In this document: piece by piece, positions 13,917 through 54,115 of the stretch | Layout: every line of letters begins with the position of its first letter | Position numbering within the stretch: the stretch's first letter is position 1 | Origin: Leucobacter allii | Lineage (GTDB): Bacteria; Actinomycetota; Actinomycetes; Actinomycetales; Microbacteriaceae | Direction: 5' to 3' | DNA length: 64,000 bases | Assembly: GCF_022919155.1 (NCBI RefSeq) | Contig: NZ_CP095045.1 | Coordinates: 1,054,001-1,118,000 of the forward strand | Program-made: the position numbers and the translations under genes | Notes under the pieces: generated by a model | The model's input: the letters and a program-made list of their open reading frames with translations, nothing else | What the model was told of the DNA's origin: nothing | Database searches by the model: none

Positions 13917-15713
13917 ATGACCTCGGATTCGAGTGCAATCCCCTCACCCTCCGCGTCCACGCGCGGCGAACGGATGACCGGCGCGCAAGCGGTCATCCGC
14001 AGCCTCGAGGCGCTCGGCGTCAGCGACGTCTTCGGCCTGCCCGGCGGCGCGGTGCTTCCCCTGTACGACGCGCTCATGGACGCCGACACCCTGCGCCACG
14101 TGCTCGTGCGCCACGAGCAGGGCGGCGGCCACGCGGCCGAGGGCTTCGCCGCGGCCTCCGGAGAGGTCGGCGTCTGCATCGCCACCTCAGGCCCCGGCGC
14201 GACGAACCTCGTCACCGCGATCGCCGACGCCTACATGGACTCGGTGCCGCTGCTCGCGATCACCGGGCAGGTGTTCTCGCACCTCATGGGGACGGACGCC
14301 TTCCAGGAGGCGGACATCGTCGGGATCACGATGCCGATCACCAAGCACTCCTTCCAGGTGCTCCGCGCGGAGGACGTGCCGGGGGCGATCGCGGCCGCGT
14401 ACCACCTCGCCTCGACCGGTCGGCCCGGCCCGGTGCTCGTCGACATCACGAAGGACGCGCAGGAGGACGAGTTCGACTTCGTCTGGGATCCGCGCGTCGA
14501 GCTCGCGGGCTACCGACCGATCACGAAGGCGAACAGCAAGCAGATCCAGGCCGCGGCCGATCTCATCGCCGAGGCGAAGCGCCCCGTGTTCTACGTCGGC
14601 GGCGGCGTCGTGCGCGCCGGAGCGGCGGCGGAGCTGCGGCAGCTCGTCGAGCTCGTCGGCGCGCCCGTCGTGACGACGCTCATGGCGCGCGGCGTCTTCC
14701 CCGACTCGCACCGCCAGCATCTCGGCATGCCAGGCATGCACGGCACGGTGCCCGCCGTGCTCGCGCTGCAGGAGGCCGATCTGCTCATCACGCTCGGCGC
14801 CCGATTCGACGATCGGGTGACGGGCAAGGCGGCGCTCTTCGCCCCCGAGGCGAAGGTGATCCACGCCGACATCGACCCGGCCGAGATCGGCAAGATCCGG
14901 GCGGCGGACGTGCCGATCGTCGGCGACGCCGCCGAGGTGATCGCCGACCTCTTCGCCGCCGTCTCCACCGCCAAGGTGAGCCGCGAGTGCGCGAACCTCG
15001 GCGAGTGGTGGCAGCGCCTCGACGCGCTGCGCGCGAAGTTCCCGCTCGGATACCAGGAGACGAGCGACGGGCTGCTCTCGCCCCAGCACGTCATCCAGCG
15101 GATCGGCGAGCTGACGGGGCCGGAGGGGGTGTACGCCGCCGGCGTCGGCCAGCACCAGATGTGGGCCGCCCAGTTCATCGGGTACGAGCGGCCGAACGCG
15201 TGGCTGAACTCTGGCGGGGCCGGCACCATGGGCTACGCCGTGCCCGCCGCCATGGGGGCGAAGGTCGCCGAGCCCGAGCGCGTCGTGTGGGCGATCGACG
15301 GCGACGGCTGCTTCCAGATGACGAACCAGGAGCTCGCCACCTGCGTGGTGAACGACATCCCGATCAAGGTCGCGGTGATCAACAACTCCTCGCTCGGCAT
15401 GGTGCGGCAGTGGCAGACCCTCATCTACGACGGCCGCTACTCGAACACCGAGCTCAACACGGGCCACGGCTCGCAGCGCGTGCCCGACTTCGTCAAGCTC
15501 GGGGAGGCCTACGGCTGCCTCGCGATCCGCGTGGAGCGGGAGGATCAGGTCGACGACGCGATCCGGCTCGCGCTCGAGACCAACGACCGCCCCGTCGTGA
15601 TCGACTTCGTCGTGAGCGCCGACGCCATGGTGTGGCCGATGGTCCGCCAGGGCACTTCGAACAGCGACGTCCAGTACGCACTCGATCACAGCCCCGAATG
15701 GGAGGGGGAGTAA
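13917..15713 (+). CDS. ilvB: Acetolactate synthase large subunit
   Basis: A 598-residue TPP enzyme condensing pyruvate with pyruvate or 2-ketobutyrate, the first common step of branched-chain amino acid synthesis. The catalytic Glu67 is in [14 protein letters not shown], where many homologues have GAGH. The central FAD-binding domain follows, and the TPP/Mg motif begins at about 461 ([15 protein letters not shown], ending in NN). About 19 extra N-terminal Ser/Pro-rich residues precede the conserved [15 protein letters not shown] 13974 would give the shorter form. It is followed 2 bp later by ilvN, the regulatory subunit. Confidence 0.96.
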
Positions 15714-15715
15714 CC

Positions 15716-17339
<1,624 letters not shown>

Positions 17340-44420: not shown

Positions 44421-45451
44421 CCTCCGCCGCGAACCTCACCGTCACCCCCTGCACCGATCGCGCCGAGTGGGACGCGACCATCAGGCGCCTCGGCGGCCAC
44501 CCCCTGCAGCTGTGGGGCTGGGGCGAACTGAAGGCCGCGCACCGCTGGAGCGCCGAGCGCGTGCTCGTCCGCGCCGGCGACGGGAGCGTCGTCGGCGCCT
44601 GCCAGCTCCTCACGCGCCGACTGCCCGGCCCGCTCGGCGGCTTCGTCTACGCGCCGCGCGGCCCCGTCGTGGCCCGCGACGCCGCCGATCCCGAGCGGCC
44701 CGCCGCCGAGCCCGGCCCCGCCGCCATCGCGGAGGCCGTCGCCGAGCACGTGCGCGCCACCCGTCGCGCCGTCGCCGTGTCGATCGAGCCCGATGAGGAC
44801 GCCGGCGCCTTCCCGCTCGGGCCGAAGTGGCGGGAGGCCCGGACGCCCGTGCTGCCCGCGCGCACGCTGATCCTCGACCTGCGCACGCCGGAGGACGAGC
44901 TGCTCGGCGACATGTCGAAGAAGCACCGGCAGTACGTGCGCAAGGCCGGTCGGGAGGAGTCGCTCGAGATCCGCCCCGTGGAGACGCGCGCGCAGCTCGA
45001 CGCGTGCCTCGAGGTCTACCGGCGGACGAGCGAGCGCGCCGACTTCGGCCTGCACGAGGACTCCTACTACCACGACGCGTTCACGATGCTCGGGGAGGAC
45101 GCGCCGGTGTGGGCGGCCTACGTCGAGGACCGCCCCGTCGCCTTCCTCTTCATGGCGAAATCGGAGCGCACCGCCTTCGAGCTCTACGGCGGCATGGACG
45201 AGACGGGGCAGCGGCTCCGCGCGAACTACGCGCTGAAGTGGCACGTGATCCGGCACATGCGCTCGATCGGGATCGAGCGCTACGACTTCGGCGGCCTCAT
45301 CAACGACGGCGTGACGACCTTCAAGAAGGGCTGGGCCTCGCACGAGAACCTGCTCGCGGGCTCGTGGGACCGCCCGGGGCCGGGGTACGGGATCTGGACC
45401 GAGGGGCTGCCGCTCGCCAAGCGGGTCGTGCGCGCGCTCCGCCGCCGCTGA
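44417..45451 (+). CDS. FemAB/FemX-like aminoacyltransferase (second of two)
   Basis: A 344-residue protein with strong FemX features: the substrate-site segment HPLQLWGWGELKAAHRW, LLGDMSKKHRQYVRKAGREE, VYRRTSERADFGLHEDSYY, and a C-terminal YDFGGLINDGVTTFKKGW. Compared with the first copy it keeps the classic KxRxxVRKA core. GTG is the start, overlapping the MurJ-like stop (GTGA), with GAAGGA upstream. It ends 6 bp before jetA. Together the two transferases could add an interpeptide bridge residue pair; this is inference. Confidence 0.85.
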   Translation: MTSAANLTVTPCTDRAEWDATIRRLGGHPLQLWGWGELKAAHRWSAERVLVRAGDGSVVGACQLLTRRLPGPLGGFVYAPRGPVVARDAADPERPAAEPGPAAIAEAVAEHVRATRRAVAVSIEPDEDAGAFPLGPKWREARTPVLPARTLILDLRTPEDELLGDMSKKHRQYVRKAGREESLEIRPVETRAQLDACLEVYRRTSERADFGLHEDSYYHDAFTMLGEDAPVWAAYVEDRPVAFLFMAKSERTAFELYGGMDETGQRLRANYALKWHVIRHMRSIGIERYDFGGLINDGVTTFKKGWASHENLLAGSWDRPGPGYGIWTEGLPLAKRVVRALRRR

Positions 45452-45457
45452 GCCCGC

Positions 45458-47026
45458 GTGACCGCCACCCGCGCCGCGGGCGCCTACCGGCGCGCCCTCG
45501 CGGCATTCACGAACCCCACGCTCGACCTCCTGCACGGGCGCCACGCGCCGTTCGTCGTCGCCGTGCTGTCGCTCGTCTTCACGGCCGATCGACCGGCCGT
45601 CGCGATCCCCGACGCGCACGCCGAGATCGGCGAGGCCGTCGAGGAGCTGCGCGCCGCCGGCTACGCCGAGGAGGGCCGAGGGCTGCCCTCCGGCACGCCG
45701 CGCGAGCTCTGCCGCTCCTGGGTGCGGCTCGGCTGGCTCGTGCCGCAGATCGTCGACGGCGCGGAGGTCTACCGGCTCTCGGCGCAGGCCGTCGGCGCGC
45801 TCGAGATCGCGGGGCGCGCGGGCGGCGGCCGCAGCCGCGTCTCGCGCTCCCGCGTGCGCACGCTGCTCGACTCGGTCGAGCAGCTCGTGCAGCACGCCGA
45901 GACCGATCCCGCGGAGCGCCTCGCCCGGCTCCACGGGGAGCGTGCGGCGCTCGATGCGGAGATCGCGCGGCTGGAGGCGGCCGAGCGCGAGGGGCGGGCG
46001 ATGGATCCGCCCGACGAGGAGCAGCTCATCGAGGGCGCGGAGCACGTGCTCCACCTCTCCCGCGAGCTGCCCGCCGATTTCTCCCGGGTGGCCGAGTCGA
46101 TCAACGCCATGCAGCGCGACGTCGTCGCCGAACTGCGCCGCGACGTCCGCCCGGCGGGCGAGGTGCTCAGGGAGTACCTGCAGCGCGGGCAGCACGTCAT
46201 GCAGGCGACCCCCGAGGGACGCGCGTTCTCGGGCGCGCTCGCCCTCATCGGGGATCCGGAGCACATCGATCGGCTCACGGAACAGCTCCGCGCGCTCCTC
46301 GGGCAGCCCTTCGCCCGGCTGCTCGGGGCGCAGCAGCGGGACGACCTCGACGCCGTCGCCCGCAGGGTCGAGCAGGGCGTGCAGGAGGTGCTCACGGCGC
46401 AGCGGGGCGCCTCGCACGTCATCACCGCCCAGGTGCGCACCCACGATCCCGCGCGGGACCGCGAGGTGGACGAACTGCTGCGGAGCGTCATGTCCGGGCT
46501 GCAGGGATGGATGCGCAGCTCGCGGCCGGGCGAGGAGGTGGCGCCGGTGCGCGGCTTCCCGAGCGCGGGCATCGGGCACCTCAGGCAGACCGTCAGCGAG
46601 CTCCGCCCGCCGCGCACCCCCGCCCCGCTCGCGGACGGCGCGGCCGAGGCGGAGTTCGCCGATGCCGATACCCGTGCCTGGGGCGGTCCCCGCTACGCCG
46701 AGCTCGAGGCGTACGTCGCGGGCCTCGGCGACCGCTTCGACCTCGCCGAGGCCTTCGCGGGCGCCGACGCGTCCACGCGGCGCCCGGTCGACCTGCTCGG
46801 CCTCCTCGAGATCGCCCACCGCAACGGCATGACCGAGGGGGAGGAGGTCTCCGTGGCCCGCGCGGTCCGCCCCGACGGCACGCGGCGCGAGTTCGCCTTC
46901 GCCGCCGTCACGGCGTCCGCCGACCCCGGGCCCGACCCCGCGCCCGATCCCGACGCCGCCTCCGCGCCCGACGCCGCCCCCGCGCCCGCTCCCGCCCCCG
47001 CAGACAAGGACCCCGACGATGATTGA
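45458..47026 (+). CDS. jetA: JetA: DUF3375 (MukF/kleisin-like) subunit of a Wadjet system
   Basis: A 522-residue protein with the DUF3375 layout: an N-terminal winged-helix region ([23 protein letters not shown]), a central coiled coil ([22 protein letters not shown]), and [21 protein letters not shown] followed by [20 protein letters not shown] helical C-terminus ([19 protein letters not shown]) is followed by a Pro/Ala/Asp-rich tail. DUF3375 proteins act as the kleisin of the JetABC SMC-like complex that, with JetD, recognises and destroys small circular plasmids. GTG start, 6 bp after the FemX-like gene; the end overlaps jetB by 8 bp. Confidence 0.82.
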
Positions 47027-47699
47027 TCCCGTGCCCGCCCCGGACCCCGCGCGCCCCGATCCCGAGCCCTTCGTCGCCCCGCTGCCGATGGAGGGCGATC
47101 CCGACGCCTGCTTCGCCGGCGACCGCGGCGTGCTCGACCCCGCGGTGCGGCGCGTGCTGGTGCGGCTCCTGCAGCGCCGCTTCCTGCTGGCCGAGCGGCA
47201 TCCCGAGGACTGGCGGGTGCTCCTCGACCACCAGCACCTCGTGGAGTCCCGGCTGCACGAGCTCTTCGTCCGCCTGGTCGTCGACCAGGGGCGCGGCGTC
47301 GCCTACAAGCAGCAGGTGCGGGCCGAGGGCCTCGACGCGCCGATCCTGCTGCGCGACGAGGCCTACTCCCGCGCGGAGACCCTCGTCCTCGTGTATCTGC
47401 GGACGGTCTATCAGCGCGAGTCGAGCTCCGGGGAGCCCGCGGCCCGCGTCGACGTCGAGGAGGTCGAGCAGACGGTGCTCAGCTACTTCGCGGAGACCGA
47501 CGGCGATCTCGCGAAGCGCCAGCGCGCCGTGCGCTCGGCGCTCACGCGGCTGCGCCAGGACGGCATCGTCGACGAGGAGTCCGAGGGCCGCTACCGCGTC
47601 GGCCCCCTCGTCGAGATCGTGCTGAGCGCCGAGCGGCTGCGCGAGCTCGACGCGTGGCTGCGCGAGCGGACCGCGGAACCGGAGGGGGCGACCCGATGA
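47019..47699 (+). CDS. jetB: JetB: DUF4194 (MukE/KITE-like) subunit of a Wadjet system
   Basis: A 226-residue protein of the DUF4194 family: [21 protein letters not shown], then the conserved [24 protein letters not shown] and a C-terminal wHTH-like [20 protein letters not shown] segment ending [16 protein letters not shown]4194 proteins are the small KITE-like subunit bridging JetA and JetC. The ATG lies inside the jetA end (8-bp overlap), and the stop overlaps the jetC start (ATGA), so the three proteins are coupled in the order usual for Wadjet type I. Confidence 0.84.
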
Positions 47700-50600
47700 C
47701 CATGCTCGACACGCTCTTCGGGCTGATCCCCGCGGGGTCCCGCGGCCAGCAGTGGCTCGCCGAGGACCTCCAGCTCGTCAACTGGGGCGGCTACGACGGC
47801 GCGCACCGCGTGCGGTTCTCGCCGCGGGCGACGCTGCTGTGCGGCGGGTCGGGATCGGGCAAGTCGACGCTCATGGACGCCTACATCGCCCTCATGATGC
47901 CGCACACCACGCCGTTCAACGGCGCATCGAACGGCGGGGTCATGGGGCGGGCGCGCGGCGAGGAGCAGCGCAACATCCTCTCCTACGCGCGGGGCAAGCT
48001 CGACGTGTCGCGCAGCGAGGAGGGCACCCGCACCCGCGTGCTGCGCGGCGACGGCGCCGACACCTGGACGGCGATCGCCATGACCTGGGTCGACCACGAC
48101 GGATCGCGGTTCTCGGCCGTGCGCGCCTGGTACATCCCGGCCGGCGCCCGGGCGCTCGAGGAGACCGTGCGGGTGCGCGCGAGCGCCGACGGCCCGGTCG
48201 AGCTGCGGGATCTCGAGGCCGCCGCGGCCCGCCGGTTCTCGGACGCGGCCCTGCGCGCGGCCGGCCTCGAGCCCGTGCCGACCGATCGCGAGTTCTCGGC
48301 GCGGCTCCATGCGGTGCTCGGGATCGGCGCGGCCGGCGCCGGGGCGAAGGCGATGAGCCTCCTCGCCCGCATCCAGGCGGGGCAGCAGATCACCACGGTC
48401 GACGAGCTCTACAAGCGGATGGTGCTCGAGGAGCCGGAGTCGCTCGCGACCGCCGACGCCGTCGTCGCGCACTTCGACGAGCTCGAGGGCACGCGCGAGC
48501 GCATGGTGACGGCGCAGAAGCAGGTGCGCGCGCTGCGCCCCATCGCGGGCATGCGGGAACGGATCGATGCCGCGATCGACCGGCTGCGGCTGCTCGAGGA
48601 GCTCGGCCGGCCCGCCGACCCCGGCTCGCTCGTGGCGCTCTGGCGCAGCGACCGCAGACTCGCGCGCCTGCGCGCGGCCGAGGCCGAACTGCAGCGGCGC
48701 GCCAGACGCGCCGAGGCCGAGGTGCGCGAGCAGCAGGCGGCCGCGGCGGCGGCCGAGGCCGACCGCGACGGCCTGCGCGAACTGCTGCGGGCGTCTGGCG
48801 GCGACCGGATCGAGACCGCGGAGCGCGAGCTGCGCGGGATCGCGCGCCGTCTGGAGACGGTACGCGCGGCGCGCGGCCGGCTCGACGAGCTGCTCGCGCC
48901 GCTCGGGCTCGCCGCGGGCACCGCGGCAGAGTTCGCGGCCCTCGCCGAGGAGGCCGCGGCAGCACTCGCGACGACCGGCGCGAAGTCGGCGCCGCGCGAG
49001 GCCTACGCCGAGGCGCGCGCCGCGCGCACCGCGCTCGCCGCCGAACTCGCCGCCGCCGAGACCGAACGCCGGGAGGCGGGCGAGCGCAGCAGCAACATCC
49101 CCGCCGCGCTGCAGCAGGCGCGCGAGCGCCTCGCCGACGCGGCGGGGCTCCGCGCCGACGAGCTGCCGTTCGTCGGCGAGCTGCTCGAGGTGCGCACCGA
49201 GTTCGAGCCGTGGCGCGAGGCCTGCAACCTCGCGCTCGGCGGGTTCACGACGAAGCTGCTCGTCGACCGCGAACGGCTCGCGGGCTTCCGCGCGGCCATC
49301 GACGGCGTGCCGGCTCCGGTGCGCCTGAGCTACGAGGGCGCACGAGCGGGTCTCGCGCGCCCCGCGGCGGCCGATCCCGCGACGCTCCCCGGCCGCCTCG
49401 AGGTGCGCGACGGCGCCTTCGCCGGGTGGCTGGAGGAACGGCTGAGGGACGGCTTCGACTTCGTCTGCGTCGACAGCGCCGCCGAGCTCGGCCGGCATCC
49501 GGCCGCGCTCACCATCACGGGGCAGAGCTCCCGCGGCGGCTCGGGCGCGCACGGCGGGCAGGGCCGCGCGAACGCGCTCGGCACCTCGAACCGCCGGCGG
49601 CTCGCCGCGCTCGACGCGGAGATCGAGCGGCTGCGCGAGCGCCTCGCCGCCGCCGCCGAGACGGAGCGGCTGGCGGCGGCCGCGCTCGACGAGCTCGATG
49701 CCAGGAGCGCCGTCTACGCGCGCATCGCCGAACTGCGCTGGAGCGAGCTCGACGTCGACGCCGTGCTGCGGGAGCAGGCGCGCTGGGAGGCGGTGATCGC
49801 GGGGATCTCGGACGGTGATGCGCGGGTGACCGAGCTGCAGCGGCGCCTCGCCGACGCGGGGCGGCGCGCAGCCGCGCTGCAGGAGGACGTCGGCCGGGCC
49901 AAGGCCGTCCGCGAGCGGATCGCCGAGCGCTGGGCCGCGCTGAGCGACGAGGTCGATGCGGCGCAGGGCGCGGTCGACGCCGCGGAGCACGCCGGCCGCG
50001 CCCTGGCGCCCGCCCAGGCGGCCTACCTCGACGACCGCTTCGCGTCGGGCACCGACGGCACGGGCCCCGCGCCGGATGCCGCGCCGGATGCCGCGACGTA
50101 TGCCGCGCCGGATGCCGCGCCGGACGAGGAACTGCGCTGCTTCGACGCCGTGATGGAGACGGCGGCGAAGCGCCTCCTCGAGGACCGGCGCCTCGCGCAG
50201 GAGACGCTCGAGGACCAGCGAGCGGCGCTCGCGCGGGTCTTCGAGGGATTCCTGGAGAGCTGGCCGAACCCGAACCTCCGCGCCGACCCCGACACCTCCT
50301 TCGGGGACTTCGCGCGCATCCTCGCCGAACTCGAGACGAGCGGACTGCACGAACTCGAGGCCGAATGGCGCGACAGCCTGCTCAAGCTCTCCGGCAACGA
50401 CCTGACGAACCTCGAGTCGACGCTGCGGCGCGCGCTGCGCGAGATCGGCGACCGGATCGAGCCGATCAACCGCATCATGCGCGCGCTCCCGTTCTCCGAC
50501 GACGCGCACCGGCTGCAGATCGCCACGCGGGAGACCCGGTCGGAGGCGCGGACGCGCTTCCGCAGGGAGCTGCGCGAGGTGCGCGCGCGCATCGAGGCGG

Positions 50601-51094
50601 CCGAGAGCGACGAGGATCGTGCTGGGGCCTACGACCGGATGTCCCGGGTGATCGAGCGGATCCGTCGCACCGCGCCCGACTTCGCCGACCTCGTCGACGT
50701 GCGCGGGCACGTGCGGGTGAGCGCGGAGAAGGTGCGCGCCGAGACGGGGGAGCACGTGGCGCTCTACGATCACATCGGCGAGAAGTCGGGCGGCGAGTCC
50801 CAGGAGCTCATCGCGTTCATCGTGGGGGCGGCGCTGCGCTACCAGCTCGGCGACGCGGGCGCCGAACGGCCCCGCTACGCCCCGGTGTTCCTCGACGAGG
50901 CGCTCATCAAGGCCGACGCGCACTTCACGAAGCGCGCGATCGGGGCGTGGCGCGGCCTCGGTTTCCAGCTCGTCATCGGCGCCCCGAACGACAAGTACAG
51001 CGCGATCGAGCCGCACGTGGACGTCGAGTACGACATCCTCAAGGACACGGCCGGCCGATCCTGGGCGAAGCCGAAGGTCGCGCTCCCGGGCTGA
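47696..51094 (+). CDS. jetC: JetC: SMC/MukB-like ATPase of a Wadjet system
   Basis: A 1132-residue ATPase of the MksB/JetC type. Walker A is [20 protein letters not shown] (Lys56). Long coiled-coil segments flank a hinge region near residues 500-650. The ABC signature is [12 protein letters not shown] (about 1030) and Walker B is [16 protein letters not shown] (Asp at about 1067). A GGAGG-rich ribosome-binding site precedes the ATG. A Pro/Asp/Ala linker made of 12-bp repeats interrupts the second coiled coil. It should load on and extrude DNA in complex with JetA and JetB. The next gene is ftsK, so the usual fourth gene, jetD, is not here. Confidence 0.87.
50069..50128 (+). repeat. jetC: 12-bp tandem repeat in jetC, five units
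   Basis: Units follow GCGCCGGATGCC; three are exact, one is GCGACGTATGCC and the last is degenerate. They encode an Ala-Pro-Asp-Ala linker and are in frame, so copy number can vary. Confidence 0.8.
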
Positions 51095-51102
51095 CCTGAC
51101 GC

Positions 51103-51143
51103 CCCGGGCACCCCCGTCGGCTCGGCCGGCTCGGCGGCCCGGG
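51103..51143 (+). terminator. Possible terminator after jetC
   Basis: CCCGGGC (51103-51109) can pair with GCCCGGG (51137-51143) across a GC-rich loop, followed shortly by GGGGTTTTC. It lies between the jetC stop and the ftsK promoter. Confidence 0.35.
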
Positions 51144-51202
51144 TCGTGCGGGGTTTTCGGGACCGCCCGGAGCGCCTGTTCGCCATTGTCGGCGGCTGAA
51201 CG

Positions 51203-51208
51203 TACCCT
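51203..51208 (+). promoter_or_regulatory. ftsK: -10 hexamer TACCCT, leaderless promoter of ftsK
   Basis: TACCCT is followed by GGTCCC and the ATG at 51215 (6 nt), separating ftsK transcription from the jetABC unit. Confidence 0.5.
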
Positions 51209-51214
51209 GGTCCC

Positions 51215-54115
51215 ATGGCTAGCAAGACGTCGTCGCGCGAAAAATCGGGCAAGCCCGCCGGGCGGGGCTCCCGCGCGGCGAGCACCCGGACCTCCGCGAA
51301 GACGCGGGTGCTCGCCGAACCGGAGCCCCAGGACGGGGTCGTGGTGCGCGCCTGGAACGGCCTCGCGCACGCCGTCGGCGGCGCGGCCCGCGCCTTCCGG
51401 CTCGAGCCGCTCGCGCCTGAGGACCGCCGAGACGGGATCCCGCTGCTGCTCGTGCTGCTCGCCGTCGCCGGCGCCGTGGTGGAGTGGTTCCTCATCGGGC
51501 AGCCCGTGGCCGCGCAGCTGGACGCCTGGACCTTCGGCGGGCTCTTCGGGCGGGTCGCCTTCGGCCTGCCGATCATCATGGCGGGCTTCGCGCTCTGGCT
51601 CTTCAACCATCCCTCGAGCGTGAACGACAACCGGCGCATCGCGATCGGGCTCTTCCTCGCGGTCGCGGGGGTCTCGGGGCTGACGCATCTCTACGGCGGT
51701 CGGCCGAACCCGCAGGAGGGCATGCCGGCGCTCGCCGAGGCCGGCGGTCTGCTGGGCTGGATGGTGGGCGCCCCGCTCGGCGCGCTCACGCTCTGGGTCG
51801 CGACGCCGGTGCTCTCGCTCCTGCTTCTCTTCGCCGTGCTCATCGTGACGAAGACGCCGCCGTCGCGCATCGCCCGCCGACTGCGGGAGGCCTACGACTT
51901 CCTCTTCGGGGTCGCGGCGGAGGCGCCGGAGGAGGCTCCGGAACCCGCCCGCAAGCGACGCGGGCGCGCCGCGTCGGACGACACGCTCTTCGACCTCGAG
52001 GAGCAGGAGGGCGACGGCGGGGCGCTGCCCTGGTGGCGCCGCAACGCCTCGGGGCGCGAGGAGGATCCGGCCTACGCCGGCGACGCCTCGGCGCTCGACG
52101 CGGCCCTCGGCGCGGGGGAGCCGGAGTCCCGGGCGGAGGGCGCCTTCGAGTCGGCCCTCGCGCCCGACGCGCCCGCCGCGACGAACGCGTTCCCCGCGGA
52201 GCTCTTCGACGAGCTCGATCAGGCCGAAGCCGCGGTGCAGGCGGCCGACCCCGCCCCGGCGTCGGGGCTCGGAGACGACTCCTGGGACGACTTCGCCGCC
52301 CCCGCGGAACCGCGGTCGGGCGACGAGCCCGCCGAGACGACGCCCTTCGCTGTCGCGCCGCCGCACGAGCCCGGGTCGACGGCGGAGTACCGCCTGCCCG
52401 ATCAGTCGGCCCTCTCCGCCGGCGACGCGCCGCGGGCGCACACCGAGGCGAACGACCAGATCATGGCCGCCCTCGCGCGCGTATTCGAGGAGTTCAAGGT
52501 CGACGCCCGCGTCACCGGATTCTCCCGGGGGCCGACGGTCACCCAGTACGAGGTGGAGCTCGGGCCCGGCGTGAAGGTCGAGAAGGTCACGGCGCTGTCG
52601 AAGAACCTCTCGTACGCCGTCGCCTCCAACGAGGTGCGCATCCTCTCGCCGATCCCCGGCAAGAGCGCCATCGGCATCGAGATCCCGAACCAGGACCGCG
52701 AGAACGTCGCACTCGGGGACGTGCTGCGCTCGAGCAAGGCGCAGCGCAGCCCGCACCCGATGACGATCGGCGTCGGCAAGGACGTGAAGGGCGGCTTCGT
52801 CGTCGCGAACCTCGCGAAGATGCCGCACCTGCTCGTCGCGGGCGCGACGGGATCGGGCAAGTCGAGCTTCATCAATTCGATGATCACGAGCATCCTCATG
52901 CGGGCGACCCCCGCGGAGGTGCGCATGGTGCTCGTCGACCCGAAGCGGGTGGAGCTCACCGTCTACCAGGGCGTCCCGCACCTCATCACCCCCATCATCA
53001 CGAACCCGAAGAAGGCGGCCGAGGCGCTGCAGTGGGTCGTGAAGGAGATGGACATGCGCTACGACGATCTGGCGAGTTTCGGCTTCCGCCACATCGACGA
53101 CTTCAACGAGGCCGTGCGCTCCGGCAGCATCGTCCTCCCCGCGGGGAGTCAGCGCGTGCTCAAGCCCTACCCGTACCTGCTCGTCGTCGTCGACGAGCTC
53201 GCGGACCTCATGCTCATCGCCCCGCGCGACGTCGAGGACTCGATCCAGCGCATCACGCAGCTCGCCCGTGCGGCGGGCATCCACCTCGTGCTCGCGACCC
53301 AGCGGCCTTCGGTGAACGTGGTCACGGGCGTCATCAAGTCGAACGTCCCGAGCCGCTACGCCTTCGCGGTCGCCTCGGGCACGGACTCCCGCGTCATCCT
53401 CGACGAGGTCGGCGCGGAGCGGCTCATCGGTCAGGGCGACGGCCTGCTGCTGCTCAACGGCGAGTCGAGCCCGATGCGCGTGCAGGGCGCATGGGTGAAC
53501 GAGACGGAGATCGCCCAGGTGGTGAGCCACGTCAAGGCGCAGGCGCAGCCGGAGTACCGGGCCGATGTGGCGCAGGCGGCCGAGAAGAAGGAGATCGACG
53601 AGGACATCGGCGACGATCTCGAGGTGCTGGTCGCGGCCATCGACCTCGTGGTCTCCTCGCAGTTCGGCTCGACCTCGATGCTGCAGCGCAAGCTCCGCGT
53701 CGGTTTCGCGAAGGCCGGGCGGCTCATGGATCTCATGGAATCGCGCGACATCGTCGGGCCCTCCGAGGGGTCGAAGGCCCGCGACGTGCTCGTGACGCCG
53801 GAGCAGCTCCCGGAGGTGCTCGCGCGGATCACGGGCGCCGGCGCGAGCCGGCCGGCGTTCGCGGCTCCGCAGGCCTCGGCTCCGCAGACCGCGGCTCCGC
53901 AGGCCTCGGCTCCGCAGGCCTCGATGGCGGCGGGCGCGTCCGCGGTCGGGGCGGGTGCGCCCGACGCGGCGCCGGACGGAGAGTCCGCCACGGACGTGAT
54001 CGCTCCGCTCGGCGACGATCGCTACGACGACCCGATCGGGCAGTACGAGGCCGGCCTCGAGGAGGTCGACGGGGACGGCGACGAGGACGCCTGGCAGTTG
54101 ACCGGGCGCGACTGA
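51215..54115 (+). CDS. ftsK: DNA translocase FtsK
   Basis: A 966-residue septal DNA pump that segregates chromosome ends at division. The N-terminus has a basic tail, then four transmembrane helices ([19 protein letters not shown] and three more) to about 210. A long acidic, Ala/Pro-rich linker leads to the motor: Walker [19 protein letters not shown] (GATGSGKSS at 543-551), Walker [16 protein letters not shown], and [18 protein letters not shown]. The C-terminal gamma winged helix ([20 protein letters not shown]) reads KOPS-type sequences. A 15-bp tandem repeat encodes an APQAS tail after it. Confidence 0.96.
53864..53923 (+). repeat. ftsK: 15-bp tandem repeat in ftsK, four units
   Basis: Units follow GCTCCGCAGGCCTCG; three are identical and the second differs at two positions. 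They encode [10 protein letters not shown] repeats in the region after the gamma domain. Confidence 0.85.

Follow-up and report, generated by a model that had tools for sequence, protein, structure and literature searches.

A three-gene operon of Leucobacter allii, contained in a stretch of 64,000 nucleotides of contig NZ_CP095045.1 (positions 1,054,001 to 1,118,000 of the forward strand; hereafter the window), appears to encode the motor of a type I Wadjet system without its nuclease. Our tentative interpretation, which we hold at slightly less than even confidence, is that the trio of JetA (a kleisin), JetB (a KITE protein) and JetC (an SMC ATPase) derives from a JetABCD ancestor from which JetD has been lost. 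Sequence comparisons support the composition of the trio, the absence of a recognisable JetD, the likely ancestral presence of jetD, its repeated loss, the conservation of JetABC and the insertion of the trio at its present site. Wadjet is understood as a motor joined to a cutter, with JetABC measuring the DNA and JetD cutting it. We consider it an even call whether, class-wide, about twenty separate conversions of this DNA-cleaving immune complex have each yielded an SMC motor that stands alone without a nuclease, is maintained by selection and travels between genomes as a cassette of three genes.

Composition of the operon and the search for JetD

The genes jetA, jetB and jetC are full-length, overlapping genes on the + strand. 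The mksF-like kleisin gene jetA (45458..47026) begins with GTG and encodes 522 residues that end in a C-terminal tail rich in proline and alanine. The mksE-like KITE gene jetB (47019..47699; 226 residues) shares its first 8 bases with the end of jetA. The mksB-like SMC ATPase gene jetC (47696..51094) encodes 1132 residues from an ATG, in a frame that is open from 47654. The most likely start of jetC is not the frame opening at 47654 but the ATG at 47696, which forms an ATGA overlap with the jetB stop. The stretch just 5' of this ATG is GGAGGGGG, and the jetC frames of several relatives open at the same MTM(L/I/V)(D/E)TLFG. Repeats with a 12-base spacing within jetC (window positions 50067-50124) add a stretch rich in proline, aspartate and alanine about 790 residues into the protein.

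Profile scores confirmed the initial annotation of these genes as JetA, JetB and JetC, with the PADLOC type I Wadjet models being matched over nearly their whole lengths. JetA matched Pfam DUF3375 at 357.5 bits (cut-off 28.6) and the PADLOC type I model PDLC00464 at 691 bits. JetB matched DUF4194 at 144.3 bits (cut-off 32.7) and PDLC00473 at 357 bits, and was also over the cut-off of the MksE profile, at 34.7 bits. JetC matched AAA_29 and SbcC_Walker_B at 75.1 and 77.2 bits, respectively (cut-offs 27), and PDLC00517 at 1585 bits. The best structure-database matches of all three proteins were solved Jet chains, with E values of about 1e-13 for JetA, 5.6e-9 for JetB and 2.4e-47 for JetC. The ATPase motifs of JetC had been described as intact, and Walker A, the signature KSGGESQ and Walker B (VFLDEAL) were all present. 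A match to HEPN_SAV_6107 in JetA was below its cut-off and was set aside.

No jetD was seen in the jetABC operon, which is flanked by a FemAB-family gene and ftsK, in agreement with the earlier observation at this locus. The window genome is one contig of 3,562,128 bases, and a profile search of the whole genome for JetD_C (PF09983) gave no match. The same search finds C. glutamicum among 14 controls and detects the JetDs of the window's own clade (clade W, see below) at about 110 bits, so it was sensitive enough for that clade. A single match to DUF3322 (PF11795) was obtained in the genome, at 22.4 bits against a cut-off of 22. It falls inside a frame that we take, from its sequence, to be TatB-like, and it was rejected as a JetD and attributed to chance. 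As far as PF09983 and PF11795 see, the Toprim nuclease JetD, which is topoisomerase VI-like, is encoded neither in the operon nor in the genome, and within the reach of these profiles the proposal of an unlinked jetD elsewhere is refuted for this genome.

Recurrence and descent of jetD-less operons

Comparison with the loci of relatives indicated that the jetD-less state recurs. With JetA counted at 180 bits or more and JetD at 40 bits or more, 48 genomes of a family sample (199 genomes) had JetA, 19 of these with JetD and 29 without; the class sample (295 genomes) had 54 genomes with JetA, 26 with JetD and 28 without. Of 37 genomes of the window's genus (its own included, some of them incomplete), 21 had a JetA, whatever its kind, and 3 had JetD. 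The presence of JetD followed the JetA subfamily. Genomes whose best JetA scored at least 400 bits had JetD in 13 of 14 cases in the family and 19 of 20 in the class; those with a best JetA below 400 bits seldom had it (6 of 34 and 7 of 34, respectively).

The window JetA was used to find 43 named loci in Leucobacter, Microbacterium, Agromyces, Gulosibacter, Frigoribacterium, Tessaracoccus, Nocardioides and Actinomyces, five of which end inside or before jetC. Three of the 43 (L040, L044 and L049) have jetD directly after jetC. The nearest jetD-bearing relatives among them are Microbacterium and Agromyces loci, and the Microbacterium JetD scores best as JetD1. A genome-wide search of the named genomes, of which L069 was not part, identified a JetD_C match in 6 of 42 and none in 36 of 42 (several of them drafts or metagenome-assembled genomes). 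In three of the 42, JetD was unlinked to the loci found and lay beside another jetC-like frame. Matches to JetC were also obtained in 14 plasmid records and one phage record, all below 60% identity. JetC-like proteins with 32-45% identity were observed on the large Mycolicibacterium/Rhodococcus plasmids CP089609.1, NZ_CP069241.1 and NC_008269.1.

Trees were built from JetABC of 108 operons and from JetA plus JetC of 146 hand-picked, class-wide operons (106 without and 40 with jetD; the former include L084, whose contig ends at jetC). The window falls in clade W, which adjoins clade X, and together W and X comprise 94 operons, 12 of them with jetD. The jetD state changes 15 times on the JetA plus JetC tree, with at least 14 changes forced by starred branches, compared to 35.5 with shuffled labels. 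In the JetD tree the seven clade W JetDs form one group and the five clade X JetDs form another, each with 100/99 support; L177, which has JetD only, was placed inside the W group, and L086 inside the X group. In all 12 jetD-bearing W/X loci jetD is immediately 3' of jetC. Because the JetDs group by clade as JetABC does, jetD was probably ancestral to W and X and was lost about 20 to 24 times, on a count that allows losses only (24 losses, or 20 with weak branches collapsed). Transfer of W-type jetD within clade W would lower the number of losses.

Among the named loci, L038 (Microbacterium psychrotolerans) has a jetD deletion scar at 15560-15900, right after jetC, and its sister locus L040 has jetD. 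The match between the two continues for about 32 bases past the jetC stop, skips ~1.0 kb and resumes for 73 bp (83.6%, E 7e-17), and both ends of JetD are recognisable in the translation around the deletion. In L044 (Agromyces humi; 15571-16772) the reading frame of the N-terminal portion of jetD differs from that of the remainder, through a frameshift or a sequencing error. In the search for remnants, a clear jetD scar was found in L038 only. The top tblastn matches were discarded as remnants; they sit within the 3' end of jetC and stem from the upstream extension of the JetD frames into that gene. JetD without a complete JetABC in the stretch fetched was observed at L095 (7934-9139), L177, L178 (a short JetD) and L153 (with a jetA stump), and represents either the reverse decay or solo JetD. 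A distant set, clade Y (L147-L151), comprises five jetD-less operons, four of them from a single genus and the fifth from a second.

Upkeep of JetABC and its probable insertion

All 78 jetD-less operon rows with all three genes had intact motif cores (Walker A, the SGG signature and Walker B), and the JetA match extended over at least 478 residues in 106 of the 106 rows scored jetD-less. Ratios of nonsynonymous to synonymous substitution rates (dN/dS) for jetA and jetC were 0.02-0.17 in all 18 jetD-less pairs tried; those for jetB were 0.07-0.41, with five of the 18 above 0.2. In the jetD-bearing pairs (n = 3) the ratios were 0.11-0.13 for jetA, 0.10-0.23 for jetC and 0.18-0.30 for jetB. Mean identities in the 11 jetD-bearing W/X rows were 0.495, 0.478 and 0.486 for JetA, JetB and JetC, respectively, and 150 draws of equal size from the jetD-less rows gave 0.481, 0.475 and 0.494 (standard deviation about 0.013-0.015). 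The closeness of these identities indicates that constraint on JetABC is not relaxed without JetD. Relaxation of a putative JetD-contacting segment in the jetD-less proteins was sought with sliding windows, and the extremes were similar in both directions. Based on these data, we interpret the jetD-less JetABC operons, as a group, as not being in decay. Among individual loci, L124 has a split jetB. The operon of L203 (G047) was observed to be spread out, with distances downstream of jetA of about 5.5 kb to jetB and about 12.7 kb to jetC, as if it had been invaded by other DNA.

Analyses of the surroundings confirmed the neighbours first described, a cell-wall gene upstream and ftsK 120 bp after jetC (gap 51095-51214). 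The left neighbour (44465..45451, + strand, start assumed) matched Pfam FemAB at 86 bits and the right neighbour, ftsK (51215..54115, + strand), matched FtsK_SpoIIIE at 223 bits; both are outside the system. In six of 12 hand-picked genomes of the same genus the FemAB gene and ftsK are adjacent, with no jetABC between them. The blastn matches of these six empty sites end at window positions 45449-45465 on the left and resume at 51165-51214 on the right. The segment missing from them (45452..51165, about 5.7 kb, edges known to about 15-50 bases, no strand assigned) has only jetABC inside. To us the cassette in the window looks like an insertion; the alternative, that the other genomes lost it and the window did not gain it, is possible but less simple. 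One of the six empty-site genomes (G027) has jetABC elsewhere. The other six genomes had no jetABC in the 1.5 kb fetched beside ftsK, and their FemAB neighbour was not found in the same arrangement. L041 matches the arrangement of the window on both sides, and L035 and L015 match it at least on the left, so the insertion would be common to a few species.

The surroundings of jetABC differ from species to species, and ftsK is beside jetC only in L041 among the 43 named loci. The initial annotation had hinted at ftsK as a relevant neighbour. A functional link was rejected, as relatives hold jetABC elsewhere and the FemAB-ftsK gap is empty in half of the 12 genomes, and from this arrangement we regard ftsK as an incidental neighbour of an apparently inserted cassette. 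Clustering of the flanking open reading frames revealed no conserved fourth gene beside jetABC across genera. An AAA_16-type ATPase gene (about 400 residues) was found near jetABC in four loci (L043 15554-16759, L048 15603-16805, L037 16309-17514 and L066 8699-9919), downstream in three and upstream in one. It was rejected as a fourth gene, being rare; two copies were scanned, one of which had a weak match to PADLOC mad8 (22.9 bits). Elsewhere the window genome has an ScpA gene, and a canonical SMC-ScpAB is therefore probably present.

Possible roles and relation to known systems

JetABC is described as a dimer that extrudes DNA with the energy of ATP; circular DNA is reeled in, and JetD then cuts it (PMC10586767, PMC12647877, PMC12287153). 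We propose that, without JetD, JetABC would still dimerise, load onto DNA and extrude loops by ATP hydrolysis. The least certain step is that it may act mainly on extrachromosomal or invading DNA, a suggestion based on the cassette being patchy, at varying places and present alongside ScpA. With a small circle, extrusion would continue until the motor stalled and kept the DNA compacted, and the replication, expression or partition of the circle would be hindered without its being cut. We infer that hindrance of plasmids or phages is preferable as the role of the patchy clade W, and that a chromosomal role is more attractive for clade X. In C. glutamicum, MksB and the four-subunit complex are reported to affect plasmids and not chromosome architecture, and the same report contrasts that complex with the P. 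aeruginosa MksBEF, which is assumed to act on the chromosome (PMC7083940). The option raised at the outset, that the complex works without cleavage, is left standing, with the repeated loss of jetD and the undiminished constraint on JetABC in its favour.

Several points weigh against a nuclease-free motor of this kind. In JetABCD the cutter is JetD (PMC10586767), and C. glutamicum mksG nulls are reported to change plasmid copy number as mksB nulls do (PMC10123090), so plasmids might escape restriction altogether by a motor that lacks the nuclease. Defence is also stated to require all four jet genes (PMC11719660). The JetD that lies beside another jetC in three of the 42 named genomes might serve in trans, and the clade X trio, present in three to four genomes per genus in several genera, could have a vertically kept, non-defence role. 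The JetABC and JetA plus JetC trees were both short LG+G4 searches with long-branch warnings. Damaged loci exist outside the trees, namely L110, in which jetC was not found, and L153 and L154, with jetA stumps. The mixed pair L121/L122 had a higher jetC dN/dS, 0.21, and, as the losses in L038 and L122 are recent, some cases could be early decay.

An alternative that we consider somewhat unlikely is that the motor, once JetD was lost, was recruited to fold or segregate the host chromosome, as an MksBEF-like condensin alongside SMC-ScpAB. The architecture of three genes without a nuclease is that of MksBEF, JetB is over the MksE cut-off, and JetABC is under strong constraint. Matches were found in three to four genomes each of g36, g49, g67, g79 and g93 (clade X) and of g53 (clade Y), and a review suggests Wadjet as a possible ancestor of MukBEF and MksBEF (PMC10586767). 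However, JetA is present in only 21 of the 37 genomes of the window's genus, at varying places and with the window's site empty in others, and the window genome already has an ScpA gene. For clade W, so patchy a distribution speaks against a core function on the chromosome.

It is unlikely, in our view, that a different nuclease or effector, encoded elsewhere, partners JetABC in place of JetD. An N-terminal pattern in the clade W JetBs is present in 52 of 55 jetD-less and six of seven jetD-bearing rows, and JetB is reported to touch JetD through an N-terminal IFDR motif (PMC10586767), the equivalence of pattern and motif being hypothetical. The AAA_16 ATPase gene near jetABC in four loci would be consistent with a partner as well. 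However, the JetB pattern is mostly missing in clade X (two of 27 jetD-less and none of five jetD-bearing rows), the inserted segment holds jetABC only, and, unlike jetD in the 12 W/X loci that have it, no neighbour is conserved among jetD-less loci of different genera. With no such neighbour, the earlier suggestion that another nuclease replaces JetD is set aside for a linked gene and may still apply to an unlinked one.

A functionless remnant of a broken Wadjet is very improbable. Decay of the nuclease is visible in the scar of L038 and the out-of-frame jetD of L044, and damaged copies of the motor genes occur (L110, L124, L153 and L154, and L203 with its operon of >10 kb). For the group, however, this explanation is already contradicted by the ATPase motifs and JetA lengths of the jetD-less rows, the low dN/dS, the lack of a drop in constraint and the complete trio in the insert. 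Equally improbable is a brake that competes with a complete JetABCD or shields a beneficial plasmid from cutting, for although jetD-less and complete systems co-occur in G004, G181, G206, G041 and G059, the 36 of 42 named carriers without any JetD have nothing to inhibit, and subunits only 23-31% identical between the two kinds, where compared (L001-L010), make mixing unlikely.

If the nuclease-free motor is correct, these operons would represent either non-cleaving immunity, in which foreign circles are held and not cut, or natural intermediates on a path from a defence system toward a condensin. That about half of the JetA genomes in our samples are without JetD suggests either that the motor is useful alone or that defence motors have repeatedly been recruited for other tasks on DNA. 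A motor useful alone would uncouple sensing from cutting in the Wadjet defence family. The sister pairs L040/L038 and L121/L122, in each of which the first has jetD and the second does not, are natural experiments on the Wadjet-like origin of MksBEF and MukBEF proposed in the review. There is also a warning for annotation, as JetABC without JetD may be credited with too much when it is scored as an active anti-plasmid system.

Sets of JetABC without JetD have been published before, as plain annotation entries. A Wadjet call in PADLOC needs all four Jet genes, and partial or Muk-like sets are reported as "Wadjet other" (PMC9252829). Paenarthrobacter lasiusi S21, which is also listed with a complete type I system, has a table row that reads "Wadjet: JetA, JetB, JetC" (PMC11719660). 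The latter is an earlier, unremarked jetD-less case, and the portions of these sources that we consulted do not discuss jetD loss, its recurrence or JetABC upkeep. No account of repeated jetD loss with JetABC upkeep was found in the portions of the open-licence literature consulted, which is weak evidence.

SMC-ScpAB also has the layout of an SMC ATPase, a kleisin and a KITE protein. The window JetC scored 18.1 bits against the SMC_prok_A cut-off of 729.4, and ScpA is encoded by a separate gene in the genome. The MukB N-terminal profile of MukBEF was matched weakly, at 21.9 bits and below its cut-off of 23. The LmuB profile of Lamassu gave only 37 bits on JetC, compared to 1585 for JetC1. MksBEF, as in Pseudomonas, is likewise a three-gene, nuclease-free kleisin-KITE-SMC operon and is a comparison of how the trio would work; the best PADLOC models of the trio are JetA1, JetB1 and JetC1, and it nests among jetD-bearing type I operons. 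The sequence comparison with Mks families covered JetB, at 144.3 bits on DUF4194 and 34.7 on MksE. The window shares with type I Wadjet (MksBEFG in Corynebacterium) the JetA, JetB and JetC families, the gene order, the overlaps and the ATPase motifs, and differs from it in having no recognised JetD in the operon or the genome, so that the DNA-cleaving subunit is missing. Because this defining subunit was tested for and is absent, we do not file the trio as Wadjet. By its sequence it is a Wadjet-derived, nuclease-free JetABC, predicted to work as Jet/Mks-type SMC extruders do.

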